A stretch of 64,000 nucleotides of DNA from Chloroflexota bacterium (GCA_016190665.1 JACPQD010000021.1:1-64000), one strand, 5' to 3'; positions 10,235-55,458 are shown, counted from the first letter of the stretch. The notes: a model not told the origin generated them from the letters alone. A program made the numbers and translations.

Positions 10235-10236
10235 GG

Positions 10237-16593: not shown

Positions 16594-18036
16594 GTGGAAG
16601 TTAGAAACAGGAAATGGGACGAGGAAGTATTCCTCAGCGAATTGAAGAAGGTCCTGGACCTCTATCCTACGGGTCGCAGCGTCGACCTCAATGAGGCGCT
16701 GGAATTCCACAAGTCCATGCCGCCGGAGAAGAATGTTACCCACGCCTACAAGAAGGCGACCGAGCAGGGAAGGATTCTCGTGCAGCCGCGCGCGGGGACC
16801 GCGACGATTGACGAGATGGTCCGCTTTCTCACGGTACTTCAGAACGACGGTGGCGCGGATATCCTGCCTATGACGATAGATACCTATACGCGGCGGCTGC
16901 AGTTCAAAGAGGCCGAGGTGGGTCTTGAGGAGAGCCTGAGGAGCGGTCGCTCTCACCTTAATGGCTTCCCGGCCGCTATCCACGGCGTCGGCGGCTGCCG
17001 CCGCGTGGTCGATGCGGTGTCGCGGCCGGTCACCGTGCGCACAGCCACCGGCACGCCCCATTTTACCAATGCCATTGCCTTTGCCGGAGGAGTTACCGAA
17101 GCGGTGGGAGCCGGACTGGCCCTGGGGCCGCCGAACTCGCCTCAGCCCATCGCCAACTCGCTCTTCTATTTCCAGTTCGTCGAGCGACTCATCGGCTGGT
17201 TCGAGGAGCGCGGCGTCACTATTTGCATGGAGCAGGAGGGCGCCAATGCGACGGGCATCATGTGCCCGCCATCGCTCCAGGCAGCCTACGGCGCGATAGA
17301 CGTGCTGCTGGCGGCGGAGCAGGGAGTCAAGAGCCAGTTGGTGGCCTATTTCCAGAACAATTGCATCGTCCAGGACCTGGCGGGCATGAGGGTGCAGCGC
17401 CGTCTGGCGGAGAGGTCGCTGAAGAGGTTCGGGTATGACTACACCTTCCTGGGGCAGGCAGCCAATTCCTGGCGCGGCTGCTACCCCGAGGACGCCGCCA
17501 GGGCCTACGGGATAATTTCCATCTCTACAGCCATCGCCGCCTACGCTCACGTAACCAAGGTCAACCCTAAGTCCGTCGAGGAGGGTGTTGGCGCTCCCTC
17601 GCCAGAAGGTAACGCGGCGAGCTGTCGCTCCACGAGGCAAGTGCTGGACCAGATGCGGGGGCAGGAGTTCCCTGACTCACCGGAACTGCAACTCGAGGAG
17701 AGAATAATCGAGGCGGAGGCGACCTCCATCCTGGAGCGAGTGCTGGAGATCGGCGATGGAGACGTGGCGGTGGGTACTGTTAAGGCCTTCGAAAGCGGCG
17801 TCATCGAGCACCCCTACTGCTCTCACCGGGCCAACGCGGGCAAGGTGATGCTGGTGCGCGACAAGGCCGGTGGGGTGCGCTACCTGAGCCATGGCAACCT
17901 GCCGCTGCCCAGGGAGGCCATCGAGTACCATCAGGAAAAGATCCGCGAGAGGATGCAGGCGGATGGCCTGACAGAGTCCGAGATGGTGGTGGAAGATATC
18001 CGCAGCGTTCGAGCGCCGGTGAGAGGAAAAGTATGA
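16594..18036 (+). CDS. Methylaspartate (glutamate) mutase epsilon-subunit-like protein, copy 1
   Basis: RAGTATIDEMVRFLTVLQNDGGADILPMTIDTYTRR...GRSHLNGFPAAIHGVGGCRRVV...VTVRTATGTPHFTNAIAFAGGVTEAVGAGLALG. GTG start. Confidence 0.85.
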   Translation: MEVRNRKWDEEVFLSELKKVLDLYPTGRSVDLNEALEFHKSMPPEKNVTHAYKKATEQGRILVQPRAGTATIDEMVRFLTVLQNDGGADILPMTIDTYTRRLQFKEAEVGLEESLRSGRSHLNGFPAAIHGVGGCRRVVDAVSRPVTVRTATGTPHFTNAIAFAGGVTEAVGAGLALGPPNSPQPIANSLFYFQFVERLIGWFEERGVTICMEQEGANATGIMCPPSLQAAYGAIDVLLAAEQGVKSQLVAYFQNNCIVQDLAGMRVQRRLAERSLKRFGYDYTFLGQAANSWRGCYPEDAARAYGIISISTAIAAYAHVTKVNPKSVEEGVGAPSPEGNAASCRSTRQVLDQMRGQEFPDSPELQLEERIIEAEATSILERVLEIGDGDVAVGTVKAFESGVIEHPYCSHRANAGKVMLVRDKAGGVRYLSHGNLPLPREAIEYHQEKIRERMQADGLTESEMVVEDIRSVRAPVRGKV

Positions 18037-18467
18037 CAGAGCCGGAGAAGATGTATCACACGACAGTCGTGACCGGGGCGATGAATGACCTGCACGTCCT
18101 GGGTATCAAGGTGCTCGAATACTTCCTGGAGAAGGATGGCTTCAAGGTGGTCTTCGCCGGCGCATGGCTTACCCAGGAAGACTTCATCAAGGCGGCGATG
18201 GAGACGAACGCCAAGGCTATCCTGGTCTCCTCATCCTACGGCATGGGCGAGTTGGACTGCGCTGGCATGCGGGACAAGTGCCAAGAGGCGGGCATCGGCG
18301 ACATCATCCTCTACGCTGGCGGCAACCTTACGGTGACCCGCCAGCAGCAGCAGTGGGAGGACGTGGCCGCCCGATTCAGGGCCATGGGCTTCGACCGCGT
18401 CTATCCGCCCAGCGTGACGCCGGAGCAGGTGATCGAGGACTTGAAGACGGACCTGGGGCTGGCATAA
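18033..18467 (+). CDS. Methylaspartate mutase sigma-subunit-like, B12-binding protein, copy 1
   Basis: NDLHVLGIKV contains the DxHxxG cobalamin-binding motif; LVSSSYGMGE; YAGGNL. ATGA overlap with the E gene. Confidence 0.88.
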   Translation: MTEPEKMYHTTVVTGAMNDLHVLGIKVLEYFLEKDGFKVVFAGAWLTQEDFIKAAMETNAKAILVSSSYGMGELDCAGMRDKCQEAGIGDIILYAGGNLTVTRQQQQWEDVAARFRAMGFDRVYPPSVTPEQVIEDLKTDLGLA

Positions 18468-33396: not shown

Positions 33397-33505
33397 AGAG
33401 GTCGCGCGACCTCGTCGGAGTCGCGACGCTGCCGTCGCTCAACATTCAGTAACATGGCGGTCAGTGTCGTCGCCGTTGTCGACGGTTAGAGAGTAAGGTG
33501 GAAAC

Positions 33506-34762
33506 ATCGAAGAAGCGACTTCCAGGAAAACCGGCGACAATGTTTCCTGCCTGGCGGGTCTGAAAATCCTTGATCTAACCCACCATATCGCTGGGCCTTA
33601 CTGCACGGCCCTTCTGGCCGGGTTCGGGGCTGAAGTCCTCAAGATCGAAAGGCCCTCCACTGGTGACCACGCCAGGGCCGTCGGCCCGTTCCCTGACGAT
33701 AGACCACATCCTGAGAAGAGCGGCCTCTTCCTGCACCTCAATGCGGGTAAGAGGAGCATCACTCTGAACCTCAAGACCGCCACAGGAAGGGATATCCTGA
33801 AAAGGCTGGCCCGAGAATACGATGTGGTGGTGGAGAGTTTCGCGCCCCGTGTGATGCCTGGCCTGGGGCTGTCCTACGAAACCCTCGCGGGCCTGAATCC
33901 GCGCCTGATAGTGACCTCCCTCTCTAATTTCGGGCAGGATGGTCCCTATCGTGACTGGAAGGCCCAGGATATCACTGAGTACGCCCTCGGCGGCCTGATG
34001 TACGTGATAGGCGACCCTGACCGAGAGCCCCTGAAGTCTGGGGGGTCACAGGCCCAATATCAGGCAGGCCTGGTGGCTGCCATCGGCACCATGGCGGCGC
34101 TCAACTGCCGGGATGTCAGCGGACTGGGACAGCACGTGGACATCTCCATCATGGAGAGCGTGTTGAATCTTGTGGCCCGCCTGATGACCATCTATTTTTA
34201 TGAGGGCGTGAACGGGCTCCGTAACGGCAGCCGCTACATGCGGCGCAGCGATAGTTGCCATACTCGGAACCACCCCACGGGGATCTATCCATGCAAGGAT
34301 GGCTACATCGGTCTCGCCGCCCAAACCCAGGCTCAGTGGGAATCCCTCTGTGTCATGATGGAGCGGGCCGACCTCTTGACGGACGAACGGTTCAAAGATG
34401 CTTCTTCTCGTGGCGTTCACGCCGATGAAGTGGACGCCATCATCGCCGACTGGCTCAAGGATAAGTCGCCAGGGGATGCCTTCGAACTCGGCGGTTCCTG
34501 CCGGGTGCCCTTCGGTATAGTGAATTCGATTGCCGACTTGTTCGACGACGCGCAGTTGCGCGAGAGAGCGTATTTCCAGGAGGTCGAGCATGCCGTTGCC
34601 GGGAAGCTTAGGTATCCAGGCGCTCCTTTTCGCATGGCAGAAAGCGCCTGGCGCCCGGGCCGGGCGCCTCTGCTCGGCGAGCACAACGAGGAGACCTTCT
34701 GCCAGCGCCTGGGGTACAGCCGGCAAGATCTGGTGCGTCTGCGGCAGGCAGGCATAATCTAG
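33506..34762 (+). CDS. CaiB/BaiF CoA-transferase family protein (no canonical start codon in frame)
   Basis: GLKILDLTHHIAGPYCTALLAGFGAEVLKIERPSTGDHAR continues in frame into ORF 33824..34762. The in-frame upstream stop TAA is at 33494 and there is no ATG/GTG/TTG before 33824; ATC at 33506 follows aaggtgg. Confidence 0.8.
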   Translation: MEEATSRKTGDNVSCLAGLKILDLTHHIAGPYCTALLAGFGAEVLKIERPSTGDHARAVGPFPDDRPHPEKSGLFLHLNAGKRSITLNLKTATGRDILKRLAREYDVVVESFAPRVMPGLGLSYETLAGLNPRLIVTSLSNFGQDGPYRDWKAQDITEYALGGLMYVIGDPDREPLKSGGSQAQYQAGLVAAIGTMAALNCRDVSGLGQHVDISIMESVLNLVARLMTIYFYEGVNGLRNGSRYMRRSDSCHTRNHPTGIYPCKDGYIGLAAQTQAQWESLCVMMERADLLTDERFKDASSRGVHADEVDAIIADWLKDKSPGDAFELGGSCRVPFGIVNSIADLFDDAQLRERAYFQEVEHAVAGKLRYPGAPFRMAESAWRPGRAPLLGEHNEETFCQRLGYSRQDLVRLRQAGII

Positions 34763-34765
34763 GAC

Positions 34766-36013
34766 ATGGCTATGTTGGCACTTGAAGGACTCAGGGTTAT
34801 CGACCTGACGACGGTCTGGGCGGGGCCGCTGGGTACGCAGTTCCTGGGGGACCTGGGGGCGGAGGTCATCAAAGTGGAGTCCTGCGCCTACCCGGATATG
34901 CTGCGCGGCTTTGCCGCCCCGCCGTCGAAACCTGGAGAGCGTTTCTGGGATAGGGGTGGGTACTTCCACACTTTGAATCGCAACAAGTATGGCGTCACCC
35001 TGGACTTGCGGGATGACCTTGGAAAGCGCGCCTTCAGGGCGCTAGTAAGAATCGCCGACGTTGTCATCGAGAACTTCAGCCTTCGGGTAATGAGAAACCT
35101 GGGGTTGGACTACCTGGCGCTTCGGGCTGTCAAGCCGGACCTCATAATGGTCTCCATGCCAGGCTATGGCGCTTCTGGCCCGTATAAGGATTATCCCGCG
35201 TGGGGTGAGACTATCGACCCCACGTCCGGCCTGGCCAGCATCACCGGGTATTTGGATGGACCCCCAATGCGTTCCGGGGTGGCCTATGGCGATCCTATTG
35301 CCGGTGTGTACGCCGCGCTCGCCGTCCTTATGGCAGCCTATCAGCGGCGGCGGACGGGCGAGGGACAGTATGTGGACGTATCCCACCTCGAAGGGCTAAT
35401 CCGGCTTCTGGGAGAGGCCGTCATGGATTACTCAATGAACGGAAGGGTATGGGGAAGACTGGGCAACCGGCATCTCCTTATGGTGCCACACGGCTGCTAC
35501 CGCTGCCGAGGGGAGGATAGGTGGATCGCTATCGCCGTGGCTTCAGATCAAGAATGGTCTTCCTTCTGCGGCGCCATCGGACAGCCGGAATGGACCCGAG
35601 ACGCGCGGTTCGTCACCAGCGCCGGCCGCCTGGCGAACGAGGATGAGTTGGATCGGCTCATCGAGAGTTGGACACGGCAACGCGATCACCGCGAGGCGAC
35701 GCGCGTACTTCAGGAGGCTGGCGTTGCCGCCGGGGCCGTGCTCACCGCCGAGGATCTTTGCCACGACCCCCACATCGTGGCGCGTGGTATCGTGCAGCAG
35801 GTTGCCCATTGCGAGACCGGCCCGGGGCTGCTGCCCGGGACGACCATCAAGCTGTCGCGCACGCCGGGCGGCATACGGAAGGCGGCGCCGTGCTTGGGAG
35901 AAGATAACGAATATGTGCTGGGCGAGTTGGTGGGGATGTCAGCGGAAGATGTGGCTGAGCTAGCTGACCGTGGGGTTATTGGGACCGCGCCGCTGGACAC
36001 CGGAAGGACATGA
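34766..36013 (+). CDS. CaiB/BaiF CoA-transferase family protein
   Basis: LEGLRVIDLTTVWAGPLGTQFLGDLGAEVIKVES; NKYGVTLDLRDDLGKRAFRALVRIADVVIENFS. Confidence 0.92.
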   Translation: MAMLALEGLRVIDLTTVWAGPLGTQFLGDLGAEVIKVESCAYPDMLRGFAAPPSKPGERFWDRGGYFHTLNRNKYGVTLDLRDDLGKRAFRALVRIADVVIENFSLRVMRNLGLDYLALRAVKPDLIMVSMPGYGASGPYKDYPAWGETIDPTSGLASITGYLDGPPMRSGVAYGDPIAGVYAALAVLMAAYQRRRTGEGQYVDVSHLEGLIRLLGEAVMDYSMNGRVWGRLGNRHLLMVPHGCYRCRGEDRWIAIAVASDQEWSSFCGAIGQPEWTRDARFVTSAGRLANEDELDRLIESWTRQRDHREATRVLQEAGVAAGAVLTAEDLCHDPHIVARGIVQQVAHCETGPGLLPGTTIKLSRTPGGIRKAAPCLGEDNEYVLGELVGMSAEDVAELADRGVIGTAPLDTGRT

Positions 36014-36047
36014 TTGCCAGGCTTAGATTTCGTTGCAGGAGGCCAAA

Positions 36048-36818
36048 GTGTCTGTTGTTCTCTATGAAAAGAGGGGTAACGTTGCCTACGTTACTGTTAA
36101 CCGCCCGGAGGCGATGAATGCTCTAAGCCAGGAGGTGAAGGCGCGTCTCGCTGATGCCTGGGATGCGATCGAGAACGACCGCGATGTCTGGGCGGCGATT
36201 GTCACTGGCGCGGGAGACAAGGCATTCTCGGCTGGGGCAGACCTCAAGGAAATGGGGAAGCGCCTCCACGGGCCTGATTCGTGGGAGGTATGGAGGCCTT
36301 GAGGCCTCACGGGTGGGGTGGAGGTCTCCAAACCCCTCATCGCAGCAATAAACGGCTACTGCCTGGCTGGCGGCCAAGAGTTGGCCCTGGCCTGTGACAT
36401 CAGGATTGCCTCCGATACGGCGCATTTTGGCGCCCCGGAGGTGAAACGGGGCATACTTCATGGCTACGGGGCGTTGCGTCTGGTCCATGCTATCCCCATG
36501 GCCAGCGCCATGGAGATGCTGCTGACTGGGGAGATGATTGATGCGCAGGAGGCGCTACGCATAGGGCTGGTGAGCCGAGTTGTCCCCCAGGTTCAGTTGA
36601 TGTCGACGGCCGAGGCGATCGCCCAGCGCATCTGCGAGAACAGCGCGGTGGCGGTGCGCGCGATCAAGGACCTGGCCTATCGCGGACTGGGGATGCCCCT
36701 GGAACACGGACTGCGCTATTATGCTCACGTCAACCGGCTGGTGCACGCGTCCGAGGATGCCAGGGAGGGGCCGCGCGCCTTCACTGAGAAGCGGAAGGCG
36801 GACTTCAAAGGCCGGTGA
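36048..36818 (+). pseudogene. Enoyl-CoA hydratase (crotonase) interrupted by in-frame TGA at 36300..36302 (pseudogene or recoded)
   Basis: VSVVLYEKRGNVAYVTVNRPEAMNALSQ...GAGDKAFSAGADLKEMGKRLHGPDSWEVWRP-TGA-GLTGGVEVSKPLIAAINGYCLAGGQELALACDIRIAS; both halves are in the same frame. AGGAGG RBS before the GTG at 36048. Confidence 0.75.
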
Positions 36819-40746: not shown

Positions 40747-41658
40747 TCATACGGCGCGGCGTCCTCTATTCCTTTCCTCAGCCCCGGATTCAATGGCAGC
40801 GATAAGTGACTGCATCTCAGGGGTGAGCACCTTGCCGGACCGTTGTACCAGGAAGTAGCGCCTTGTGCGAGGGAATCCCTCGACGTCGAGCACGCAGAGG
40901 CGCCGGTCCTCCAGTTCCTCGGCGACTATCGACCTGGGCAGGATGCCAATACCAACCCCTGCGCGGCAGAGCTGCTTGATCATATCGTGCCTGTTGACTT
41001 CGACTGCGATTCTAAAGCGAATGCCGTACTCGGATTCGATCGCATCGATCTCCTGTCTTGACGAGCTCCCCTTCAAGGAGACGATGAGGGGTTCGCGGCT
41101 GAGCTCGCTAACCGAAATCAAGCCAGATTTTTCGAGCGGATGGCCTGCCCGCGCGACAACCACCAGAGCGTCTGAGAGGATCAGCTTGGTCTGGAAACCC
41201 GGGAACCCTCCGAATCCTGTGGCCAGGAGAAAATCCACGCCGTCCTGTTGAAGGAGGTCCCGCATTTGCTCATGCGTTCCCTGCATAATAGTGAGGCTGA
41301 CGTGTGGGTGCTCTGACATCCACTGGGCTAGAACGTTGGGCAAGAGATAGCCTCCGAAATGTGTGCCAGCTCCAATTGTGATATGGCCGGACATGGGCTC
41401 CTTCTCTTCCGCGATCGTTTGCTCCGCCAGCTTCTTGAAGAAGGCAACTTGAGCCGCATATTCGAAGACAGCTCTGCCCGCCTTAGTCGGGGCAACCCCT
41501 TTCCCTTGCCGCTCCAACAACTTGAGCCCACATTGTCTTTCCAGGCTTCTGACGGACTTGTACACCACTGGTTGCGAAATGCCAAGCTCCTCAGCCGCCC
41601 AGGTATAATTTCCGTTCTTGGCAACAGTGAAGAAATATACAAATTGATTTAGATTCAT
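40747..41658 (-). CDS. LysR-family transcriptional regulator
   Basis: MNLNQFVYFFTVAKNGNYTWAAEELGISQPVVYKSVRSLERQCGLKLLERQGKGVAPTKAGRAV; divergent from the glutamate-mutase-like/GRE operon. Confidence 0.93.
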   Translation of the reverse strand: MNLNQFVYFFTVAKNGNYTWAAEELGISQPVVYKSVRSLERQCGLKLLERQGKGVAPTKAGRAVFEYAAQVAFFKKLAEQTIAEEKEPMSGHITIGAGTHFGGYLLPNVLAQWMSEHPHVSLTIMQGTHEQMRDLLQQDGVDFLLATGFGGFPGFQTKLILSDALVVVARAGHPLEKSGLISVSELSREPLIVSLKGSSSRQEIDAIESEYGIRFRIAVEVNRHDMIKQLCRAGVGIGILPRSIVAEELEDRRLCVLDVEGFPRTRRYFLVQRSGKVLTPEMQSLIAAIESGAEERNRGRRAV

Positions 41659-42172: not shown

Positions 42173-43624
42173 ATGGAGTCGGAGGTCAGAAATAAGAAAT
42201 GGGATGAAGACGTGCTGCGGAGCATGCTTGCGGAGGTGCTGCGCCTCTATCCCACTGGTCAAGACGTGGATCTGGAGGAAGCGGTAGAGTACCACCGGTC
42301 TATGCCGCCCGCGAAGAACGTCACATATGTCTACCAGGAGGCAGAGAAGGAAGGAAAAGTTCTCATACAGCCTAGGGCGGGGACAGCGACCATAGAGGAT
42401 ATGATCGCGCTACTGCGGTGTCTTCAAGACGAGGGGGGCGCCGATATCCTCCCCATGACCGTCGACACCTATACCCGAAGGATGCAGTTCCGGCAAGCGG
42501 AGATCGGTCTGGAAGAGAGCAAACGGACGGGGCGGTCGCACCTTAACGGCTTTCCTGCCGCGATCCATGGAGTGGCAGGCTGTCGCCGCGTCGTTGAGGC
42601 CGTGTCTCGCCCGGTGACCTTCCGAACGGCTACAGGCACACCTCAGTTCAACGACGCGATCGCCTTCGCCGGAGGCGCCACTGAATGTGGTGGAGGGGCG
42701 GTGGCTCTCGGCATTCCCAACAGCCCGCAACCTGTCGCGGTCTCGATCCGCAACTACCAGTTTGTAAATCGGCTGATGGGTTGGTTCGAGGAACGGGGAG
42801 TCACCATCTGTATGGAGCAGAAAGGATGCAACGCCACAGGGATCATGTGTCCCCCCTCTCTCCAAGCCGCTTACGGCGTCATCGATGTGTTGCTGGCTGC
42901 GGAACAGGGAGTTAAGAGCCAATTGGTCGCTTACTTTCAGAACAACTGCGTCATTCAGGACATTGCTGGGATGAGGGTGCAACGCAGGCTCGCCGAGCGT
43001 TACCTGAACAGATTTGGCTACAAGGATACTTACCTGGGCCAGGCTGCCAACTCCTGGCGGGGGTGCTACCCCGAAGACCTCGCCAAGGGCTATGGCATCA
43101 TCTCCGTCTCCACCGCCATCGCCGCCTATGGGGGGGTGGTCAAGGTCTGCCCCAAATCTGTGGAGGAGGGCCTTGGAGCGTCCTCGAAGGAGGCCAATGC
43201 AGCGAGTTGCCGTTCCACGCGACAGGTCCTCGACGTGATGCGAGGGCAGCAGTTCCCCCGATGTCCCGAGCTGGAGTTGGAGGAGGCCATGATCGAATCG
43301 GAAGCTACAGCGGTCGTGGAAAGGGTTCTGGACATTGGCGACGGCGACATCGCCGTCGGCACTGTTCGAGCGTTCGAGTCCGGCGTCATCGAATACCCCT
43401 ACTGTTCGCACAAGAGCAACGCGGGAAAAGTGATTCTCGTGAGGGACAAGGAGGGGGCGGTGCGCTACCTGAATCCCGGCTATCTGCCCCTGCCTAAGGA
43501 GGCTGTCCAGTATCACCAGGAGAGAATACGCGAAAGACAGTGCCTCGAAGGTGTGAAAGAGTCTGAGATGGTGGTCGACGACATACGGTGCGTTCGATCG
43601 CCTGTGAGAGCGGTATCATGGTAG
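42173..43624 (+). CDS. Methylaspartate (glutamate) mutase epsilon-subunit-like protein, copy 2
   Basis: MESEVRNKKWDEDVLRSMLAEVLRLYPTGQDVDLEEAVEYHRSMPPAKNVTYVYQEAEKEGKVLIQPRAGTATIEDM...; collinear with 16594..18036. Confidence 0.85.
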   Translation: MESEVRNKKWDEDVLRSMLAEVLRLYPTGQDVDLEEAVEYHRSMPPAKNVTYVYQEAEKEGKVLIQPRAGTATIEDMIALLRCLQDEGGADILPMTVDTYTRRMQFRQAEIGLEESKRTGRSHLNGFPAAIHGVAGCRRVVEAVSRPVTFRTATGTPQFNDAIAFAGGATECGGGAVALGIPNSPQPVAVSIRNYQFVNRLMGWFEERGVTICMEQKGCNATGIMCPPSLQAAYGVIDVLLAAEQGVKSQLVAYFQNNCVIQDIAGMRVQRRLAERYLNRFGYKDTYLGQAANSWRGCYPEDLAKGYGIISVSTAIAAYGGVVKVCPKSVEEGLGASSKEANAASCRSTRQVLDVMRGQQFPRCPELELEEAMIESEATAVVERVLDIGDGDIAVGTVRAFESGVIEYPYCSHKSNAGKVILVRDKEGAVRYLNPGYLPLPKEAVQYHQERIRERQCLEGVKESEMVVDDIRCVRSPVRAVSW

Positions 43625-44061
43625 AGTCTCAAGCGGACGAGAAGAAGTACCATACGACAGTGGTCACCGGGGCCCTCAACGATCTGCATGTTCTGGGAAT
43701 CAAGGTCCTGGAGTACTTCCTGGAGAAGGAAGGCTTTAGGGTGGTCTTTGCCGGAGCATGGCTGACTCAGGAGGACTTTATCAAGGCGGCGATCGAAACG
43801 GATGCCAGTGCCGTTCTGGTTTCCTCCTCCTACGGGATGGCGGAGATAGACTGCGCCGGGATGCGCGAGAAGTGTCGGGAGTCCGGCATTGGCGATCTAC
43901 TGCTCTACGCGGGGGGAAACGTGACAGTCACTCGCCAGCAACAGAGCTGGGAGGACGTGGCTGCTCGCTTTAGGAACATGGGCTTCGACAGGGTCTATCC
44001 GCCGAGCGTCACTCCCGAGCAGGTCATTGCGGACCTGAAGGCTGACCTGGCGCTGCCCTGA
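43618..44061 (+). CDS. Methylaspartate mutase sigma-subunit-like, B12-binding protein, copy 2
   Basis: TVVTGALNDLHVLGIKVLEYFLEKEGFRVVFAGAWLTQEDFIKAAIETDASAVLVSSSYGMAEIDCAGM; DxHxxG motif; ATG overlaps the E-gene stop. Confidence 0.88.
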   Translation: MVESQADEKKYHTTVVTGALNDLHVLGIKVLEYFLEKEGFRVVFAGAWLTQEDFIKAAIETDASAVLVSSSYGMAEIDCAGMREKCRESGIGDLLLYAGGNVTVTRQQQSWEDVAARFRNMGFDRVYPPSVTPEQVIADLKADLALP

Positions 44062-44105
44062 ACGGATATTTCGGATATTACGTCTGGTCACTGAAGGAGG
44101 TCGAA

Positions 44106-46562
44106 ATGCCGTCGCCAAGAATCGTGGAAATGAAGAAGGAACACGTTCCGAAGTACTACGTCGGGGATGACTTCAGCAAGCCGGTCCGTTTTTCCGTCTT
44201 GAGGAGCCGGTACTACACGGAGACATGGAAGGAAACTGAGGGAGAGCCCATTTCCGTTCGAAGAGCCAAGGCCCTTGCTCGGTACCTGGACAACATGCCG
44301 CTCTATATCCGGCCTTTCGAGCTCATTGTTGGCTTCCATGCGGAGGACCCCCACTGCTTGCCCCTTTGTATAGAGGGCTGGGATCAAAGAAGCGTCACCC
44401 AGTACATCAATGCCGGTCGTTGCAAATCGGAAGACCTGGACGAATGGCATGAGTTGATCGAGTATTGGAAGCCACGCAGTCTCGGCACGTTGGTTCGAAA
44501 CCAGATAACGCACAGGGACTTCCTGATCGGCGCCGCCAGGAACAGGTACATGGAGGCGCTGCCAGGCGAAACTGGCTCACGCACTCAACCGGACCATGAC
44601 ACCTATTTGGAAACGGGCCTGAACCAGATTGTGGAGACGCTGTATGGAAAGCTGGCTGACCTCAACAGCCAGTGGGAGGCCACCACGGGCGGAACCCAGG
44701 CGGTGGAGATCCGCAAGAAGATCTACGACCTTCGGGCAATGATCATCTCGGCTGAGGCCGTGCTTCGTTGGGCCAAGCGGTACAGTCGACTGGCCAAAGA
44801 GATGGCCGACAATGAGGCGGACCCGGAGCGGAAGAAGGAGCTGGAGCAGATATCGGAGATATGCGCCTGGGTGCCCGGCAATCCACCGCGCACGTTCTGG
44901 GAGGCCCTGCAGAGCCATTGGCTGGCGTATCTGGCCTATCACATCATTGAGGTCATGTGCCACGGCACTTCCATGCGGACCGACCAGGTCTTCTGGCCCT
45001 GGTATGAGAAGGATGTCCTGATCGATAAGTCCCTGCCACGCCAGAAGGCGTTGGATCTGATGGAGGAGTATCTCCTTCATGTGGATGAGCTGGGTCGGCC
45101 AGCCCCGGCCCATCGTCGCAGGACTGCTCAAGGCAACAATTTCTTGGCCACCTACACATTGGGAGGCGTGAAGGCTAAGGACGGGAGCGACGCCTGCAAC
45201 GAATTGACCATCCTGATTCTGGATGCCCTGGACGATTTGAGGGTGAGCCATCCTGACCACAAGTTCAGGTGGCATCCGAGGGTTAACCCAAGAGTCTGGA
45301 AGCGCGTGGTTGAAGTGGTAAGGAGCGGACTCGGTCAGCCGTCCATCAAGAACGACGAGGTGGTGATTGGAGCGCTGATGGACCACTATGGGTTCACCCT
45401 GGAGGAGGCCAGGAGTTGGGCAGTTGTCGGCTGCGTGGCCCCCGCCCCGACCATCCACTGGGGCCGCGCGAGAAGAGACGCTTACGGGGCCAATGCCTTG
45501 AAGCCTCTCGAGCTGACTTTGAATAACGGCGTCGATCCCCTCCTCGGACACGAACCCGAGGAATTCCGAAATGATAAGATCCTGCAAGCTTTGGCGGAAG
45601 ACCCCCGGATAGGGCCGCCAACCGGGGATCCTGCGGAATTCCGTTCCTTTGAGGAGTTGCTTGAAGCCTATCGACAACAGATGAGGTGGATGGTGCGGAA
45701 GGCATCGGCCATCAAGACCATCTACGAGCATATGAATAACGAGCATATCAAGCGTCCGTTTGCCTCCTGTCTCTTCCATCGCTCCCTTGATGCTTGCCGG
45801 GACATCATGGACGTCTACGATAAAGGCATGCCGTGGATGAACTGCGCGGGGACGGTTGACGCTGCTGACACGCTTATCTCGCTCAAGAAGCTGGTCTTCG
45901 ATGACAAGAAGTACACTATGGCGGAGGTATTGAAGGCGATTCGGGCCAACTGGGAAGGCTACGAAGAGATGCGGCGAGATTTCATCAATGCGCCCAAGTT
46001 CGGGAATGATGATGCCTACGCGGATGAAATAGCCAGGTGGGTTTACTCGATGATAGCGGACGAGATGGCCCAAGCTAGAGACGTTTCGAATCAGTCTCCC
46101 ATGCGATCAGGTCTCGTCGTCTCGCGCATGTTCCAGCTTGCACCCCACGTGGGCGCCATGCCGAATGGCAGGAAGGCCGGTGACTGGCTAGGCGACGGAG
46201 GCGTCAGCCCCCACGCCAAATATGACAGGAGCGGGCCGATGGCGGCGATATTGTCTGCTGCAAAGATAGACCACCGCAAGCACAAGGCGAACCTGTTCAA
46301 CCAGAAGCTGACTCCCGCGAGTGTGGCGGGAGAGGCGGGGTTGAGAAAGCTTCAGAACTACATAGAGACGGCCATGCACCTGGGACTCGACATGATCCAG
46401 TTCAATGTAATCGATGTGGGGACCTTGAAGGAAGCGCAGGCGCGTCCTGAGAAGCATGCCGAGCTGGTGGTGCGGGTCTCGGGGTTCAACGCACACTTTG
46501 TTGACCTTAACCGGTTTGTGCAGGACTCCATCATAGAGAGGACCGAGCACGCGCTCGCGTAG
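44106..46562 (+). CDS. Glycyl-radical enzyme (pyruvate formate-lyase/glycerol dehydratase superfamily)
   Basis: Active-site Cys in SWAVVGCVAPAPTIHWG; C-terminal glycyl-radical motif ELVVRVSGFNAHFVDLNRFVQDSIIERTEHALA; gaaggagg RBS. Confidence 0.88.
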   Translation: MPSPRIVEMKKEHVPKYYVGDDFSKPVRFSVLRSRYYTETWKETEGEPISVRRAKALARYLDNMPLYIRPFELIVGFHAEDPHCLPLCIEGWDQRSVTQYINAGRCKSEDLDEWHELIEYWKPRSLGTLVRNQITHRDFLIGAARNRYMEALPGETGSRTQPDHDTYLETGLNQIVETLYGKLADLNSQWEATTGGTQAVEIRKKIYDLRAMIISAEAVLRWAKRYSRLAKEMADNEADPERKKELEQISEICAWVPGNPPRTFWEALQSHWLAYLAYHIIEVMCHGTSMRTDQVFWPWYEKDVLIDKSLPRQKALDLMEEYLLHVDELGRPAPAHRRRTAQGNNFLATYTLGGVKAKDGSDACNELTILILDALDDLRVSHPDHKFRWHPRVNPRVWKRVVEVVRSGLGQPSIKNDEVVIGALMDHYGFTLEEARSWAVVGCVAPAPTIHWGRARRDAYGANALKPLELTLNNGVDPLLGHEPEEFRNDKILQALAEDPRIGPPTGDPAEFRSFEELLEAYRQQMRWMVRKASAIKTIYEHMNNEHIKRPFASCLFHRSLDACRDIMDVYDKGMPWMNCAGTVDAADTLISLKKLVFDDKKYTMAEVLKAIRANWEGYEEMRRDFINAPKFGNDDAYADEIARWVYSMIADEMAQARDVSNQSPMRSGLVVSRMFQLAPHVGAMPNGRKAGDWLGDGGVSPHAKYDRSGPMAAILSAAKIDHRKHKANLFNQKLTPASVAGEAGLRKLQNYIETAMHLGLDMIQFNVIDVGTLKEAQARPEKHAELVVRVSGFNAHFVDLNRFVQDSIIERTEHALA

Positions 46563-46857
46563 CGTCCGGGGGCGGTCCTCACAGGATCGCCCCCAGCACT
46601 GTCCGATTGAGATTGGACCGCGCGTGACCATCATGTTTCCTGTCCCCTCCGCGGGAGAGGGCTAGGTCTGGCCAGACAGTTGACGGGAAAGTGTTGTCGG
46701 ATATCATTGGGATCGCCCGTTCTACATAGCTCAGCAGGACGGACACTGAGAATTTGGCGAACACGCGCTCTTAAAGTGACTGTCGGGGGGTTATGGTAGC
46801 AGATTGAAAGCTCCGAGATATTCAAGTTCCGACCTGATCCCTGAGGGAGGTCCTTTG

Positions 46858-48219
46858 ATGGGCGTTACTGAACAGTTGGCAGCTTTCATGGTGGAGACTC
46901 GCTTCGAGGAGATTCCTGGCGAGGTAATAGGCCTGACCAAGAAGTTCTTCCTCGATTGCCTTGGTACGGCGCTGGCCGGGTCCCGGGAAGAACCGGGACG
47001 AATCATCACCGAGTACACACGCGAGATCGGTGGCAGTCCTGAGTCGACTTTGGTTGGCAGCGGCTTTCGGACTTCCGCGGCCAACGCGGCGCTGGCCAAC
47101 GGCCTTATGGCCCACGTCCTCGATTTCGACGACTCAGGCTTTTCCCATCCCACCGGTTGCATTCTGCCCGTCCTTCTCTCGATGGGTGAGAAGCTGAGGG
47201 CCTCTGGCAGAGAGGTGCTGACTGCTCATGTGATGGGCTACGAATGCTTTGGCAAGCTGTCCTACTGTTCCCGACCCTATGAGCGCGACCTGCGAGCGCG
47301 AGGCTACCATCCCAGCCCTCTCTGGGGATCCATGGGCGCTGCCGCTGCCGCCGCTAAGCTGCTGAGGCTGGACGTCGACAGGACCCGGATGGCGCTCGGC
47401 CTGGCGGGCTCTCAGGCAGCGGGGCTTACCGAGAACTTCGGCACTATGACCAAGGGCTTTCACAGTGGAAACGCGGCGAGGGCCGGTGTACTGGCAGCTT
47501 TACTCGTAGGCAAGGGATACACGGCCAGCCAGGAAATCATTGAAGGAAAACACGGCCTGTATCACGCGGTGGTGGGCGAAGGCAACTATGACCTGGGCAG
47601 AGTTACGGAGAATCTGGGGAAGACCTGGGAGGTGGTGACGCCTGGGTTGTCGGTGAAGCGCTACCCCTGCTGTGCCGGCAACCTGCGCGCCCTCGACGCC
47701 GTGCTCGGCATAGTCAGGGAGCACAATGTTTCCTTCAGCGACGTTGAGTCGGTGGAAGTCGAGATAAGCGCTCAGCGCCGCGACACGCTTCGTTTCGATA
47801 AGCCTGCCTGTGGCTTCCAGGGTAAGTTCAGCATGGAATACAACATGGCGGCCGCCATTCTGGATGGGAAAGTGGATATCGAGACCTATCACGATGCGAA
47901 GGCCCATTCCTCTGAGATGAAGGAGGCGCTGAGCAAGGTTCGCGTAATCGTCAGGACGGACTGGGCGTGGGATGTGGGGAAGCGGCGGAGCCCCGTCAAG
48001 GTCAGGATGAGGGACGGGCGCGAGTTCCTTAATGAGGTGGAAAAGCCAAGGGGTCATCCCGAGAATCCTCTGACAGATGAGGAGTTGCACGCCAAGTTCC
48101 GGTACTGTGCGGGTAGGGCGGGCCTGTCGGAGGATAAGACTGAAGGCACGATTGAGCTCGTGCAGAGGCTTGAGACGCTTGGGGACATCACTTCTATCAT
48201 GGAGAGTGTTACCGCGTAG
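46858..48219 (+). CDS. MmgE/PrpD family protein
   Basis: GEVIGLTKKFFLDCLGTALAGSREEPGRIITEYTREIGG...TSAANAALANGLMAHVLDFDDSGFSHPTGCILPVLLSMGE. Confidence 0.9.
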   Translation: MGVTEQLAAFMVETRFEEIPGEVIGLTKKFFLDCLGTALAGSREEPGRIITEYTREIGGSPESTLVGSGFRTSAANAALANGLMAHVLDFDDSGFSHPTGCILPVLLSMGEKLRASGREVLTAHVMGYECFGKLSYCSRPYERDLRARGYHPSPLWGSMGAAAAAAKLLRLDVDRTRMALGLAGSQAAGLTENFGTMTKGFHSGNAARAGVLAALLVGKGYTASQEIIEGKHGLYHAVVGEGNYDLGRVTENLGKTWEVVTPGLSVKRYPCCAGNLRALDAVLGIVREHNVSFSDVESVEVEISAQRRDTLRFDKPACGFQGKFSMEYNMAAAILDGKVDIETYHDAKAHSSEMKEALSKVRVIVRTDWAWDVGKRRSPVKVRMRDGREFLNEVEKPRGHPENPLTDEELHAKFRYCAGRAGLSEDKTEGTIELVQRLETLGDITSIMESVTA

Positions 48220-48378
48220 ACCTGATCCAGCGAATCGATCGGGCATCGGTACCGCCAAGAGATGCACGTGGTAGTCCCCTGGAGCGGCAATCCAGGACCG
48301 CGTGATGGTGCATGTAGGACCGGCCCGTCCTGCTGAGTGATCGGCTTGTGGCTTTCTGGAAGTTGGAGGTGCGCCGAA

Positions 48379-50067
48379 ATGTCGACGAAGAAGCTATTCT
48401 CTCTGCCTGGTTGGGTATCCGTTTTCGCCCTGCTGTTCATGAGCTGTGCGCCAGCGGCCACGCCCGCTCCCGCCGGCAAGGCGGCGGAATCCCCCGTCTC
48501 GTATCCGAAGACTGGAGTGACCTCTGCAGCCCCATCACCGACTCCCAAGTCGCCGTCGGAGCAATCAAGGTACGGCGGGACGTTGAAGCACAGTCTCAGG
48601 GTCGATGAGAACACATTGGACGTACATGTGACAGGTAGGAGCCAGGCTTACGGTCAGGCCGGACCAGCCTACAACGGCCTGGTGACATACGATTCAGAGG
48701 ATAGCCGGAAGATCATCCCGGACCTGGCGGAAAGCTACCAGGTCAGCACGGACGGCAAGAAGATCACATTCCGCCTCAACAAGAATATCAAATGGCACGA
48801 TGGCAAGGCCTTCAGCTCCGAGGATGTTAAGTTCAATTTTCAGCGTTGGATGAAGCCTCCGCAAGGTGTCACCATCGCCCGCAAAGAGCTGGCAGCGCCT
48901 GTGGAACGGGTGGAGACGCCTGACCCCAATACGGTGGAAATCCATCTGGCGTACCCAAGCCCCTCTTTTATGGCTGGGATCGCCACTCCTTCAGCGGTGA
49001 TGCTGCCTCCGCAATATCTTAAGGACCACAAGACGATGGAATTCACTGTCCTGGGCACCGGACCTTTCAAGTTGCAGAGGTACAATCGGGGCGCGAGCTT
49101 GGAGTATGTGAAGAATAGGGACTACTTCGTACGGGGGCGTCCCTACCTGGATAGGCTCAGTTTCTATATGATCCCCGATGAGATGGCCAGGTTTGCTGCT
49201 TTCCGAACTGGACAGATCAGGACGATGTTCATCGCCTCGATGACCATGACCGTCACTCATGGCGAGGTCCTCAAGAGAGAGATGAGCGACAAGGTGAGTG
49301 TGGCTCGCTTGCCTGGTATGACCATTTTCTTCCTCTTTCTCAGTGTCAACCGTCCGCCCTTCAATGACGTCAGGGTTCGACAGGCGGTGGATATGGCATT
49401 GGACCGAAAAAAGGGCCTGGACGTGGTCGAGGGCAGAGGCGAGCTTTCCGGTCCAATGATCCCTGGGCCGTGGGCGCTGCCGAATGAAGAGTTGCTGCAG
49501 AGGCCCGGGTATCGCGGGGTAAGCGCGGCGAACATCGAGACGGCGAAGGCCATGCTAGCCGAGGCTGGATATCCCAAAGGTCTACAAACCGACGGAATGA
49601 TACAGACCTCATACACTACGCAGATGGCCTTCATCAAAGACCAGCTCAAGGCTATAGGCATCGACGTCTCCATAAAGGTCGTCGATGTGGCCACTATGGA
49701 GAGTCGCCAATTGACGAAAGATTATGGCATGACCTTCAACGGCAATTCGCAGCCCCTTGATGACCCCGATCTGTACCTCTCCTTCTCCACATCGGACGGA
49801 GGCAGAAATTACAGCGGCTTCAGTGACAAGGAGGTAGACGATTGGTACAAAGAGCAGTCAAGGACCGTGGACCCGGCGAAGCGTAAGGACATTGTCTTGA
49901 AGTTTCAGAGAAAGGTATTAGACCTGGCTCCATCTCCTATCCTTTATCACGGCCTCTATGAGGTCCCCTATTGGAAATGCGTGAAGGGATACTATCCCGA
50001 GAAGGCGCTGGGCGCCAGCTACGGTGTGAAGAAGGACCAAATCTGGCTGGCTGAAGGTTGCGGGTAA
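48379..50067 (+). CDS. Family-5 ABC transporter solute-binding lipoprotein
   Basis: LLFMSCAPAAT lipobox; RYGGTLKHSLRVDENTLDVHVTGRSQ; DLAESYQVSTDGKKITFRLNKNIKWHDGKAFSSEDVKFNFQR. Confidence 0.92.
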   Translation: MSTKKLFSLPGWVSVFALLFMSCAPAATPAPAGKAAESPVSYPKTGVTSAAPSPTPKSPSEQSRYGGTLKHSLRVDENTLDVHVTGRSQAYGQAGPAYNGLVTYDSEDSRKIIPDLAESYQVSTDGKKITFRLNKNIKWHDGKAFSSEDVKFNFQRWMKPPQGVTIARKELAAPVERVETPDPNTVEIHLAYPSPSFMAGIATPSAVMLPPQYLKDHKTMEFTVLGTGPFKLQRYNRGASLEYVKNRDYFVRGRPYLDRLSFYMIPDEMARFAAFRTGQIRTMFIASMTMTVTHGEVLKREMSDKVSVARLPGMTIFFLFLSVNRPPFNDVRVRQAVDMALDRKKGLDVVEGRGELSGPMIPGPWALPNEELLQRPGYRGVSAANIETAKAMLAEAGYPKGLQTDGMIQTSYTTQMAFIKDQLKAIGIDVSIKVVDVATMESRQLTKDYGMTFNGNSQPLDDPDLYLSFSTSDGGRNYSGFSDKEVDDWYKEQSRTVDPAKRKDIVLKFQRKVLDLAPSPILYHGLYEVPYWKCVKGYYPEKALGASYGVKKDQIWLAEGCG

Positions 50068-50399: not shown

Positions 50400-51788
50400 G
50401 TGAAGGAGGAGAAGCTTTTGGACGCAGCAGTAGCCTTTGCCAAACTGGCTGCACAACAGAGGTACGAGGATCTTCCACCGGCCGCCGTTGACCTGGCGAA
50501 AAAGGATATCCTCGACACCCTGGGCACCACTCTCGCCGGGAGCGCTGCCGAGGGAGCGGAAGAACTAGTTGGCCTCATCAAAGAGCATGGAGGAAAGCCA
50601 GAGAGCTCCGTCGTGGGGCACTGGTTCAAAGTTCCCTCGCCCCAGGCCGCGCTGGTCAACGGTTACATGGCCCGCAGCGTCGACTACGATGATACCCACG
50701 ACGTGGCTTCGTTGCATGCCGGTGGCACAGTGGTCAGCGCCGCCTTTGCCGTTGCGGAAGCCAGGGGCGGCATCAGCGGCAAGGAGTTCATAACTGCTGT
50801 TGCGCTCGGAGTTGATATGGTCTGCCGAATGGGGATGGCGAAACAGGAGGGGCGTTCGGCGGGCTGGACAGGTACACCGCTCTATGGTTACTTCGGGTCC
50901 ACGCTGGCCTCAGCGCGAGTCTTGGGCCTCACCGAAGAACAGACGATTAGCGCGTTGGGAATAGCTTACGGGCAGGCGGCCGGCACCTTGCTTGAGATCA
51001 AGGAACGTGTACTGACCAAGAACCTCGACATCGGGGCTGCCGCGCGGGCAGGGGTATTCTCCGCGTTGGCAGCCCAGAGGGGCATCACCGGCGCGCGAAA
51101 TTGCCTGGAAGACGAAATGGGGCTGTTCCATGTATACCATCGCGGGAACTACGATCCCAAGCACCTGACGGATGAGCTGGGCAAGCGGTTCGAGATAGCC
51201 CACCTCAGTTTCAAGCCCTATCCCTGCTGCCGTCGAAACCAGCCTTTTGTTGACCTGGCGATACAGTTCTTTCGGGAACGCAAGATAAGGCCGGAAGATG
51301 TGGAGGAAGTGATTGCCCACATCGATCACGAGCCTCATCTGGAGTTCCACCCGGTTGAGGAGAAACAGAACCCTAGGACTATCACCGATGCGCAGTTCAG
51401 CATACCGTATTGCATTGCAGTTGCTCTCGCCAGAGGCGCTGTGGGACTGGACGACTTCACCGAATCTGCGATCAAGGACCAAAGGATCATCGCCCTGGCG
51501 CGCAAGGTGGTTCCCAAGCTGGATGTCTCGCTTTTCCGACCTCAGGAGCTTTGCCCGGCCGTGCTTGAGGTCAGAACCAGAGATGGTGCGTACTTAGAGC
51601 GAGTCGAACACGCCTATGGCACTCCCCTGAATCCAATGAGCATGGAGTCCCTGGTTGAGAAATTCAGAGACTGCGCTTTACATGCTAAGAAGAAGGCAAG
51701 CGTGGACCGTATCGCCGAGGCCACCGACATGGTGTCTAACCTGGAGAATGTGCGCGACGTTACAGAGGTTATGCGCCTTCTCAGCTGA
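50400..51788 (+). CDS. MmgE/PrpD family protein
   Basis: PPAAVDLAKKDILDTLGTTLAGSAAEGAEELVGLIKEHGGKPESSVVG...QAALVNGYMARSVDYDDTHD. Confidence 0.9.
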   Translation: MKEEKLLDAAVAFAKLAAQQRYEDLPPAAVDLAKKDILDTLGTTLAGSAAEGAEELVGLIKEHGGKPESSVVGHWFKVPSPQAALVNGYMARSVDYDDTHDVASLHAGGTVVSAAFAVAEARGGISGKEFITAVALGVDMVCRMGMAKQEGRSAGWTGTPLYGYFGSTLASARVLGLTEEQTISALGIAYGQAAGTLLEIKERVLTKNLDIGAAARAGVFSALAAQRGITGARNCLEDEMGLFHVYHRGNYDPKHLTDELGKRFEIAHLSFKPYPCCRRNQPFVDLAIQFFRERKIRPEDVEEVIAHIDHEPHLEFHPVEEKQNPRTITDAQFSIPYCIAVALARGAVGLDDFTESAIKDQRIIALARKVVPKLDVSLFRPQELCPAVLEVRTRDGAYLERVEHAYGTPLNPMSMESLVEKFRDCALHAKKKASVDRIAEATDMVSNLENVRDVTEVMRLLS

Positions 51789-51911
51789 GGGCGACCGTGG
51801 GCAAACCATTCTCGGGAAAGAGGCGGGAGCCGCTCAGCGGCGCCATCTGGCTTCAGCCGGCGCAGATTAGCGGCAGGCACGAAGATAGGCAAATTCGCGG
51901 GAGGTGATTTG

Positions 51912-53435
51912 GTGCTCGTACGCAGTGGGGTGTCCTGGGACAAGACCAGCGATGTGGTCATCATAGGTTACGGTATTGGTGGCGCCGTCTCCGCCATAAC
52001 CGCGGCGGAGAGCGGTGCAGAGGCAATCATCCTGGAGAAGCAGTCTCCTGAGACGAAGCACAACAATACCAGCATGTCTGGCGGCATCTACATCACTCCG
52101 CCGGATGTCCAGAGCGGCCTGGAATACATGACTGCCCTCTGTCGGGTTGCTGGCATGCCGAATATGTTATGGACAGATAGAGCCATCATAAGGGCGTGGG
52201 CTGAGTACGCGGCCACCGGTCGGCAGTGGGTCGAGGAAAGGGGAGGCAGCATATTTCCGAACCCAGGCGTGGGGGAGCACCCGCAACTGCCCGGTGGGGC
52301 GATGCTGTCCAAACACCGTTTCCGGGGCATGGGAATCGGCCTGGCTCGCTTTCTCGACGATCAGGTGAAAGCGAAGAAGGTATCTGTCCTGTACGAAACC
52401 CGAGCGGTTCGCCTGCTGACGAACCTCAGAGGAAGAGTGGTAGGAGTCGAGGCCGAAACCACGCAAAATGGGCAGACCAGGAGGCTGCGTATCAGAGCGT
52501 CCAGGGCCGTTGTGCTGGCTCCAGGGGGGTTTGAGTACGATGAGGAGACGAAGCTCAACTATCTGAGAGTGTATCCGACGTATTTCACGGGCAGCGCGGC
52601 GCTAACAGGCGACGGCATAAGAATGGCGCTGGACGTGGGAGCGCAACTCTGGCACATGAATTGTGTCTCGGCACGGCTTGTCATGAAGTTCCCCGGTATC
52701 GCCAATGCTTTCACTCCTGACCACCTTGGCAAAGCCGCCCTGGGCAAAGGGCCCGGAAAGGGCGATGAGGCCATCCCAGTCACTTCTGGCTACATCATTG
52801 TGGATGGGGATGGCAGGAGATACACCTCCGAGAACATAGCTGGGCACGCCCTCTACTACGAGCTTGCGCTCTTCGACACGCACCGCCTGGTCTATCCCCG
52901 AGTACCGAGCTATATCATTTTCGACCGCAGGCGACTGGAGAATGGCCCTCTTCCTCTCGTCACCTCTGGCCCGGCCGGACAAACCGGGATTTACCGGTGG
53001 AGCGCTGACAACGGCAAAGAGGTGGAACGAGGCTGGATCAAGACCGCGGATACGGTGCGCGGTCTTGCCAGGAAGGTGGGCATATCAGCGGAGGCCCTCG
53101 AGAGAACGGTGAAGACTTTCAACCGCTATTGTGAAAAAGGCAAGGATCCGGATTTTAGCAGAAAAACGAAGGAGCTCATACCGCTGGAGAGCGCCCCGTA
53201 CTGCGCCGTGGACCTGTGGCCGGGAGGGCCGAACACCCAGGGTGGGCCGCGACGGAATAGCAGGGGCCAGATTCTCAACGCCGATGGCAAACCCATTCCC
53301 GGGCTCTACGGTTGCGGCGAGCTGGGGTCAGTTTACGGCATGCTCTATCCCGGAGGGGGAGGGAACATCACCGAAGGCTTCGCCTTCGGGCGAATCGTTG
53401 GGGAGAACGCAGCTCGGGAGAAGGGCGTATCGTAA
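51912..53435 (+). CDS. FAD-dependent oxidoreductase, fumarate reductase/ketosteroid dehydrogenase-type flavoprotein
   Basis: SDVVIIGYGIGGAVSAITAAESGAEAIILEKQSPETKHNNTSMSGG; RAVVLAPGGFEYDEE; PIPGLYGCGELGSVYGMLYPGGGGNITEGFAFGRIVGENAA. Confidence 0.9.
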   Translation: MLVRSGVSWDKTSDVVIIGYGIGGAVSAITAAESGAEAIILEKQSPETKHNNTSMSGGIYITPPDVQSGLEYMTALCRVAGMPNMLWTDRAIIRAWAEYAATGRQWVEERGGSIFPNPGVGEHPQLPGGAMLSKHRFRGMGIGLARFLDDQVKAKKVSVLYETRAVRLLTNLRGRVVGVEAETTQNGQTRRLRIRASRAVVLAPGGFEYDEETKLNYLRVYPTYFTGSAALTGDGIRMALDVGAQLWHMNCVSARLVMKFPGIANAFTPDHLGKAALGKGPGKGDEAIPVTSGYIIVDGDGRRYTSENIAGHALYYELALFDTHRLVYPRVPSYIIFDRRRLENGPLPLVTSGPAGQTGIYRWSADNGKEVERGWIKTADTVRGLARKVGISAEALERTVKTFNRYCEKGKDPDFSRKTKELIPLESAPYCAVDLWPGGPNTQGGPRRNSRGQILNADGKPIPGLYGCGELGSVYGMLYPGGGGNITEGFAFGRIVGENAAREKGVS

Positions 53436-54015: not shown

Positions 54016-55458
54016 ATGAATGAGAAAGAGGCTCTGGAACATCCGACAAGGGCGCTGGCACGCTTTGTCGTCGAGATGAAGTACGATGATCTTCCGTCGC
54101 CGGTAATCCGCGAGGCGAAGCGCCTCATCCTGGATGTTGTCGGCAATGCTATGGCCGGTTCTGTCACCGAGATCGGCGCTATCGCCTTGAAATATGTGCG
54201 GCTCTTGGGAGGGAGGCCGGACTGCACCATAATTGGCGCCGGAGAGAAAACTTCGGTGCTAAGTGCCGCCTACGCAAATTCCCGGCTTGGCGATGCCCTG
54301 GATGCCACTGACATGACTCTGAATTTCGGCCATATTGGTACACCCGTGGTGGCCTCGGCGTTGGCTTTCTCTGAACTGGAAGGCGCCTCCGGCAAGGACC
54401 TGATAGCCGCGGTGGCGCTGGGCTTTGAGGTAGGGGCGAGGCTATCAGGCTCCGTGGCCATCCCTAGCCTGGGCTCCGGTGCGGAGTCCAGCGTTCTGCG
54501 CAACCGCATGCCCTTTGGTGCGCTTGGAGCAGCCTCGGCAGCCGGTAGGGTGATGGGATTCGATGAGGAGAGGCTGATGACCGCCTACAGTATCGCCGGC
54601 GCCAACGCCTCTTTGGCCACCACGCGGTGGACGGAGGCCGCTGCGCTACCGTTGACCAAGTACGGCGATGCTGGCCTGCAGGCTTCAGACGGCGGTATGG
54701 GGGCGTTGATGGCTGGCTGCGGGATGACGGCGTACCAGGGGATCCTCGATGGTGAGAATGGACTCTGGAAGCTAAGGGGCACTGGCGCTTGCGATTTCAA
54801 TGTAATGGTCGGTGGGCTTGGCGAGAAATGGTACTTCCCTGAGATTGGCTATAAGCCCTGGCCAAGCGTCCAGCGCACGAGGCACGCGTTGACACTGTTC
54901 ACCAGGATAATCAGCGAGAACCAAATTAGAGCGGAGGAGATAGAGAGCGTCCTCATTCGCACGAACTCTGTCGGCGCCTCCGCGCGTTTTGCCGACAAGA
55001 ATCCTATCGGTATGGTGAGCTGCGAGTTCAATCAGCCCCACGCTATTGCCATGGCGGCCCTGGGTGTCAAACGAGGGGCGGACTGGTATTCACCAGAGAT
55101 AATCAATGATGCTCGAGTGCGTGCCCTGAGAGAGAAAGTTGACGTTGGAGTAGAGCCGAGGACAAAAGAAAAGAAAACGTGGCCTTTAGAGGACCAACTT
55201 AGAAAGGAGCCAACCAGCATCCTGGTTGCCGCCAGAGGTAAGACTTTCGAAGGCTACACGGAGTACGCCAAAGGCGACCCCTGGACTGAGGAAACCTATT
55301 TTAGTGACGATGACCTGCGGGCGAAGTTCAGGGATTTGGCGTCCTCATTGAGCATCGCTTCGACGAGTTGGCGAAAGAGGATAGAAGAGATCATTGATAC
55401 GATAGCGCGGCTGGAGCAGGTTGAGGTAGCCGATCTTGTGCGGTTGTTTAGCATCTGA
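54016..55458 (+). CDS. MmgE/PrpD family protein
   Basis: SPVIREAKRLILDVVGNAMAGSVTEIGAIALKYVRLLGGRPDCTIIGAG...SAAYANSRLGDALDATDMTLNFGHIGTPVVASALAFSE. Confidence 0.88.
   Translation: MNEKEALEHPTRALARFVVEMKYDDLPSPVIREAKRLILDVVGNAMAGSVTEIGAIALKYVRLLGGRPDCTIIGAGEKTSVLSAAYANSRLGDALDATDMTLNFGHIGTPVVASALAFSELEGASGKDLIAAVALGFEVGARLSGSVAIPSLGSGAESSVLRNRMPFGALGAASAAGRVMGFDEERLMTAYSIAGANASLATTRWTEAAALPLTKYGDAGLQASDGGMGALMAGCGMTAYQGILDGENGLWKLRGTGACDFNVMVGGLGEKWYFPEIGYKPWPSVQRTRHALTLFTRIISENQIRAEEIESVLIRTNSVGASARFADKNPIGMVSCEFNQPHAIAMAALGVKRGADWYSPEIINDARVRALREKVDVGVEPRTKEKKTWPLEDQLRKEPTSILVAARGKTFEGYTEYAKGDPWTEETYFSDDDLRAKFRDLASSLSIASTSWRKRIEEIIDTIARLEQVEVADLVRLFSI

Follow-up and report, generated by a model that had tools for sequence, protein, structure and literature searches.

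Gene organization of the locus

The DNA analyzed here was a stretch of 64,000 nucleotides from a Chloroflexota bacterium (GCA_016190665.1, JACPQD010000021.1:1-64000; hereinafter referred to as the window), in which genes for an adenosylcobalamin (AdoCbl)-dependent mutase of the glutamate mutase family and for a glycyl-radical enzyme (GRE) lie next to each other. The contig to which the window belongs measures 359 kb; the draft genome has 5.0 Mb, a completeness of 96.6% and a contamination of 6.1%. Since relatives of the same class include single-contig genomes of 1.5-1.7 Mb with 27 and 21 reductive-dehalogenase matches, we infer that the class is Dehalococcoidia.

The first gene of the run (42173..43624, plus strand) encodes a MutE/GlmE-like epsilon subunit of 483 amino acids (hereinafter E), which matched TIGR01503 with 451 bits (cut-off, 390) and the structures 6h9e and 1cb7. 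It was followed on the same strand by a MutS/GlmS-like B12-binding sigma subunit (S; 43618..44061, starting at ATG 43618), which matched PF02310, exceeded the cut-offs of TIGR01501 and NF002612, and contained both the B12 motif NDLHVLG (DxHxxG) and YAGGN. Both subunits thus passed the NCBI equivalog cut-offs of their models. The third gene (44106..46562, plus strand) encodes a complete GRE of 818 amino acids with both Pfam GRE domains (PF02901 and PF01228), an intact glycyl-radical motif (RVSGFNAH, with Gly793) and an intact active-site cysteine (Cys443). The sequence AAGGAGGT, a strong Shine-Dalgarno sequence, stands upstream of its ATG at 44106, and the same start was found in both of its paralogues in the genome (see below).

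The E and S genes share 7 nt, and 44 nt separate S from the GRE gene. A LysR-type regulator gene (PF00126, PF03466) is located divergently at 40747..41658 on the minus strand; related LysR genes are also divergent to GRE genes at three other loci (L070, L071, L072). Profiles and coordinates thereby confirmed a preliminary description of this DNA, which had reported E, S and GRE genes adjacent in one direction, with overlapping E and S, behind a divergent LysR gene, and a ribosome-binding site of the GRE's own. No terminator-like site was found in the S-GRE gap, which, together with the divergent LysR gene, makes co-transcription of the three genes plausible. None of the papers searched names methylaspartate mutase together with glycyl radical enzyme; the preliminary description had likewise called the pairing unfamiliar.

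Substrate-binding residues of the mutase

In the structure of glutamate mutase, R66, R149 and R100 bind the two substrate carboxylates, while E171 contacts the amine and Y177 the acrylate (PMC10947579). These positions were compared, in GlmE numbering, with a control set consisting of GlmE, six MutE annotated beside methylaspartate ammonia-lyase (L132-L137) and a Chloroflexota MutE whose adjacent lyase was confirmed (L142). All controls retained R66, R100, R149, E171, Y177 and Y181. The window E retained the arginine claw (R66, R100 and R149), but Gly, Leu and Asn replaced E171, Y177 and Y181, respectively; in addition, H150 was replaced by Thr and M294 by Arg. The window pair resembles Clostridium GlmES in having E and S subunits, in the 42% identity of E to the glutamate mutase epsilon subunit (6h9e), in the claw and in the DxHxxG motif of S, and differs from it in the replaced pocket residues, in the order E-S with no L gene between, and in the genome, which lacks an ammonia-lyase partner. 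A whole-genome search for methylaspartate ammonia-lyase gave no match at E<=0.001, and a GlmL adjoins a different E/S pair, on contig C14; that neither gene is visible at the locus had been noted from the window. Ordinary glutamate fermentation was rejected in view of the absent ammonia-lyase and the altered pocket. The window E is probably not a canonical glutamate mutase.

The own genome contained eight MutE matches, one of which was a fragment, and among 393 genomes of the class, eight (own included) carried MutE at E<=1e-40. Y177 was lost in all 21 Dehalococcoidia MutE examined, and E171 in all but one (L106). Nine of them formed a separate clade (100/100) that had additionally lost R66 and R149. 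Members of this clade (L094, L096-L100, L103-L105) kept R100, and some lie beside UbiD or CaiB genes; these enzymes may rearrange substrates that have a single free carboxylate. In the tree, the lyase-linked MutE were separate from the Dehalococcoidia clades. In a MutE from Syntrophobacterales Delta_01, R149 is replaced by Lys and E171 by Asn; at this locus (L093:3190-7426), a gene of the PEP-mutase/isocitrate-lyase family, MutS, GlmL and MutE stand in a row, followed by an apparent TRAP transporter.

Affiliation of the glycyl-radical enzyme

Compared by sequence with solved structures, the window GRE matched the alpha subunits of (1-methylalkyl)succinate synthase (MASS; MasD, 482 bits) and benzylsuccinate synthase (BSS; TutD/BssA, 457 bits) best, with the next family at 341 bits. 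The same MasD/TutD-first order was obtained for a paralogue on contig C41 and for L107. In two trees, the GRE and its paralogues grouped at 100/100 with TutD, MasD and AssA-like proteins in a clade that also held L107-L109, three proteins encoded in a family of very small genomes; the other GREs of the genome and the CutC, HypD and E. coli references stood apart from it. Within the clade, the GRE branched deeply, outside the characterized X-succinate synthases. The structure model (pLDDT 90.8) retrieved BSS and MASS structures as the top four matches of a fold search (TM 0.92-0.93).

According to the residue roles reported previously, fumarate is bound by Arg508 in BSS and Arg492 in MASS (PMC12358834). 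Arg456 of the window GRE aligned with this arginine, which is shared by the CMRW GRE clade and hence not exclusive. The cysteine loop was GCVAP in the window GRE, GCISP and GCHSP in the paralogues, and CMSP in BSS and MASS. The window GRE thus shares with TutD/BssA and MasD the clade, a C-x-S/A-P loop, the fumarate arginine and the overall fold, as well as Asn615 as in BSS, although it is only about 35% identical to them and other pocket residues differ. A dehydratase or an enzyme of the CutC or HypD type was ruled out by the trees, the ranking of structures and the absence of Glu at Cys+2. Given its tree position beside fumarate-adding enzymes, the GRE shows no clear membership of a known unrelated pathway, an outcome the preliminary description had left to be checked. 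Addition of a hydrocarbon to fumarate may be an activity of this enzyme.

As had been noted from the window, no activase adjoins the GRE gene. The genome contained five full GRE activases and one fragment, so that the window GRE, judged from the gene content, must be activated in trans; the activase beside the C41 paralogue is a natural candidate.

The genome encoded about 23 GREs. Thirteen of these formed one clade with the cysteine loop GCSQ(P/A), and three more had GCVQH; in these proteins Gln replaces the eliminase Glu, and most of the genes (e.g., L047-L050, L060, L067-L074) have UGSC-family genes and genes for orphan binding proteins as neighbors. Four tandem GRE genes were found in a different genome of the class (L121:6935-16846).

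Duplication and conservation of the gene pairing

Both parts of the gene run occur elsewhere in the genome, each without the other. A second E-S pair (16594..18467, plus strand; E 74% identical) is located in the window itself: the DNA at 16596-18461 was 72.5% identical to 42181-44055, and the copy stops with S, with no GRE behind. The GRE DNA was likewise duplicated, with 72% identity over 44106-46562. One GRE paralogue, on contig C41 (73% amino acid identity), is directly followed by an activase and accompanied by a damaged MmgE/PrpD gene and a FAD protein; the other, on contig C56 (69%), is accompanied by a truncated activase, MmgE/PrpD and an aconitase-type pair. Neither has E-S beside it. 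The C56 cluster (L051:2692-6577) comprises large and small subunits of the aconitase type, MmgE/PrpD and the truncated activase fragment. The similarity to the second E-S pair ends at 44055 and that to the C56 cluster begins at 44094. As the two blocks meet within 44056..44093 (plus strand), the gene order in the window looks like the junction of two separately duplicated cassettes.

For comparison, 21 MutE stretches from other genomes were searched with nine different GREs: 13 from seven other genomes of the class, seven from four other Chloroflexota genomes and one from Syntrophobacterales Delta_01. None of the 21 contained a GRE. The companions of MutE in these genomes were CaiB/BaiF CoA-transferase pairs, enoyl-CoA hydratases, MmgE/PrpD, FAD_binding_2 flavoproteins, and GlmL or UbiD genes. 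Conserved E-S-GRE synteny was ruled out by these stretches, by the separate duplications and by the second E-S pair without GRE. The preliminary description had named a lack of this synteny in relatives as an outcome that would refute its reading. The idea of a dedicated two-radical operon therefore finds only partial support: both radical enzymes exist and their genes adjoin, but synteny fails even within the own genome. As an argument for a new pathway, the E-S-GRE operon is weaker than it first appeared.

Elsewhere in the genome, a fragment of MutE is found within about 2 kb of a GRE (L060:136-6397). In that locus and in L056:9445-12705, MutE is followed by an isopropylmalate-synthase/HMG-CoA-lyase-like gene.

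Gene neighborhood

Downstream of the GRE, on the plus strand, the window contains an MmgE/PrpD-family gene (46804..48219; PF03972/PF19305), a family 5 solute-binding protein gene (48337..50067; PF00496) with no adjoining permease genes in the gene list, a second MmgE/PrpD-family gene (50400..51788; assigned by family clustering), a FAD_binding_2 flavoprotein gene of the dehydrogenase/reductase type (51909..53435; PF00890) and a third MmgE/PrpD-family gene (54016..55458). The damaged MmgE/PrpD after the activase in the C41 cluster is a copy of the first of these, preserved in pieces of 60-84% identity. The flavoprotein was 65% identical to the one encoded beside the C41 GRE, and the third MmgE/PrpD protein was 68% identical to one encoded near a MutE on contig C15. 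No remnant activase was found between the window GRE and the first MmgE/PrpD gene, whereas the C56 cluster keeps a C-terminal fragment.

Several further features were observed. Family 5 solute-binding proteins were numerous, with at least 133 over the cut-off in the 5.0-Mb genome (369 first-look candidates), mostly without neighboring permease genes; in the window they were located at 48337-50067, 55685-57385 and 57669-61056. Genes of the UGSC family (PF24696) and their relatives were also numerous beside GREs and MutE, and the N- and C-terminal halves are often encoded separately; such genes lie at 14203-15913, 23615-25436 and 61095-62768 in the window and at many other loci. A FAS1-dehydratase/MaoC-like gene, two CaiB/BaiF CoA-transferase genes and pieces of enoyl-CoA hydratase stand in a row at 32278-36818, an arrangement resembling the MutE companions found elsewhere. 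A gene run at 6670-13770 on the minus strand looks, from the gene list, like cobalamin biosynthesis, which fits the many B12 enzymes.

Proposed role and alternative explanations

GRE, MmgE/PrpD and a FAD protein occur together both in the window and on C41, and MutE, MmgE/PrpD and a FAD protein recur together at C15, L094, L098 and L101. The MmgE/PrpD and FAD_binding_2 families typically act on branched di- and tricarboxylates. On the basis of these shared companions, we read the locus as two separately duplicating cassettes that came to stand side by side in an island for the catabolism of branched dicarboxylic (or polycarboxylic) acids, a reading to which we give an even chance. A shared pathway for E/S and the GRE is plausible, in which the mutase product might, as the preliminary description suggested, serve the GRE as substrate. 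Since the GRE is placed beside fumarate-adding enzymes and the mutase has kept its dicarboxylate site, a link via substituted succinates would be chemically reasonable.

In such an island, E/S would be an AdoCbl carbon-skeleton mutase still gripping two carboxylates, which probably interconverts a linear, glutarate-type acid and a branched, methylsuccinate-type acid, in either direction, via hydrogen abstraction and group migration. The GRE, once activated in trans, would pass the radical from Gly793 to Cys443. Cys443 would then abstract hydrogen from a co-substrate, which would add to (or leave) a fumarate-like acceptor held by the cysteine loop and Arg456. The MmgE/PrpD and FAD_binding_2 enzymes may subsequently hydrate or isomerize the product and desaturate it. 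Parts of this scheme have known counterparts. In nicotinate fermentation, 2-methyleneglutarate mutase is an AdoCbl mutase whose dicarboxylate substrate carries no amino group, and the aconitase-type hydratase genes beside the C56 GRE paralogue recall this pathway. The window mutase differs in consisting of separate E and S subunits and in belonging to the glutamate mutase family, and the analysis showed neither a methylitaconate isomerase nor a dimethylmalate lyase. The alkylsuccinate pathway consists of fumarate addition, activation with coenzyme A (CoA) and a CoA-dependent skeleton rearrangement. It likewise combines a fumarate-adding GRE with a B12-dependent rearrangement, whereas the window mutase is glutamate-mutase-like rather than methylmalonyl-CoA-mutase-like and the pairing is not conserved.

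Several results weigh against the proposed reading. The adjacency could be due to chance: when eight MutE and about 23 GREs were placed at random, about 6% of trials had at least one GRE within two genes downstream of a MutE, regardless of strand, and 29% had one no more than five genes away on either side; because the two families share the same catabolic islands, the true null for adjacency lies above this random estimate. In the GRE, the position of Gln707/Glu690, which hydrogen-bonds fumarate in TutD/BssA and MasD, is Leu or Gly. No small accessory CX2C Fe-S subunits like those of X-succinate synthases were found near the GRE gene, whereas the same scan detected such genes beside the AssA-like GREs of the class used as controls (L111, L114, L122); a genome-wide search with one query of low sensitivity gave no match either. 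The clade of E has a conserved Glu two residues upstream of E171 (position 169) that could contact an amine in its place, so that E may still act on an amino acid. The claim for E is for this reason kept to "not a canonical glutamate mutase" and does not extend to "certainly not an amino acid mutase".

The strongest competitor, which we hold to be a real possibility though short of even, is the chance juxtaposition of two unrelated catabolic genes with no shared pathway. A 5.0-Mb genome crowded with both families, the random-placement frequencies of 6-29%, the separate duplications and the lack of conservation all suit it, but it leaves the tight spacing, the strong Shine-Dalgarno sequence, the common strand and the single divergent LysR unexplained, as well as the repeated company of the same MmgE/PrpD and FAD genes. 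Alternatively, the GRE might be a decarboxylase or lyase whose branch lies close to the X-succinate synthases; phenylacetate decarboxylase may be a case of this kind. The deep branch, the altered Gln707/Glu690 position and the accessory subunits not found near the gene are consistent with this, while the retained fumarate Arg, Asn615 and C-x-S/A-P loop and the lack of Glu at Cys+2, unlike in HPAD and IAD, make it rather unlikely.

A new CoA-independent shared route, in which the GRE would make a substituted succinate and E/S would rearrange its skeleton as a counterpart of alkylsuccinate synthase and its CoA-dependent mutase, draws on the clade of the GRE, the dicarboxylate claw of E and the direct adjacency of the genes. 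It appears improbable, since the gene order does not recur in other genomes, neither GRE paralogue adjoins an E-S pair, the E-S paralogue adjoins no GRE, and a migrating radical without an alpha-amino group needs another stabilizing group. Its specific form as a radical relay, in which a co-substrate (possibly carboxylated) would be added to fumarate or methylfumarate and an amine-blind E/S would rearrange the substituted succinate to a glutarate, with handover of the substrate between the two radical enzymes, is slightly more improbable still. Least likely of all is an ordinary glutamate mutase, converting glutamate to methylaspartate beside a GRE by happenstance: TIGR01503 and TIGR01501 are matched above the equivalog cut-offs and the arginine claw is retained, but E171, Y177, Y181, H150 and M294 are all replaced and the genome has no methylaspartate ammonia-lyase.

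Implications

What is new and testable in the proposed two-cassette reading is the pair of off-family enzymes themselves, which is more interesting than their pairing. Under standard annotation, the E/S genes would pass for methylaspartate mutase and the GRE gene for a formate-lyase-like enzyme. The residues indicate instead that B12 enzymes resembling glutamate mutase, with other substrates, have radiated in Dehalococcoidia, and that these bacteria also hold a GRE branch next to the fumarate-adding enzymes. Both enzyme groups would open new ways into the anaerobic degradation of carbon compounds by this largely uncultured group.

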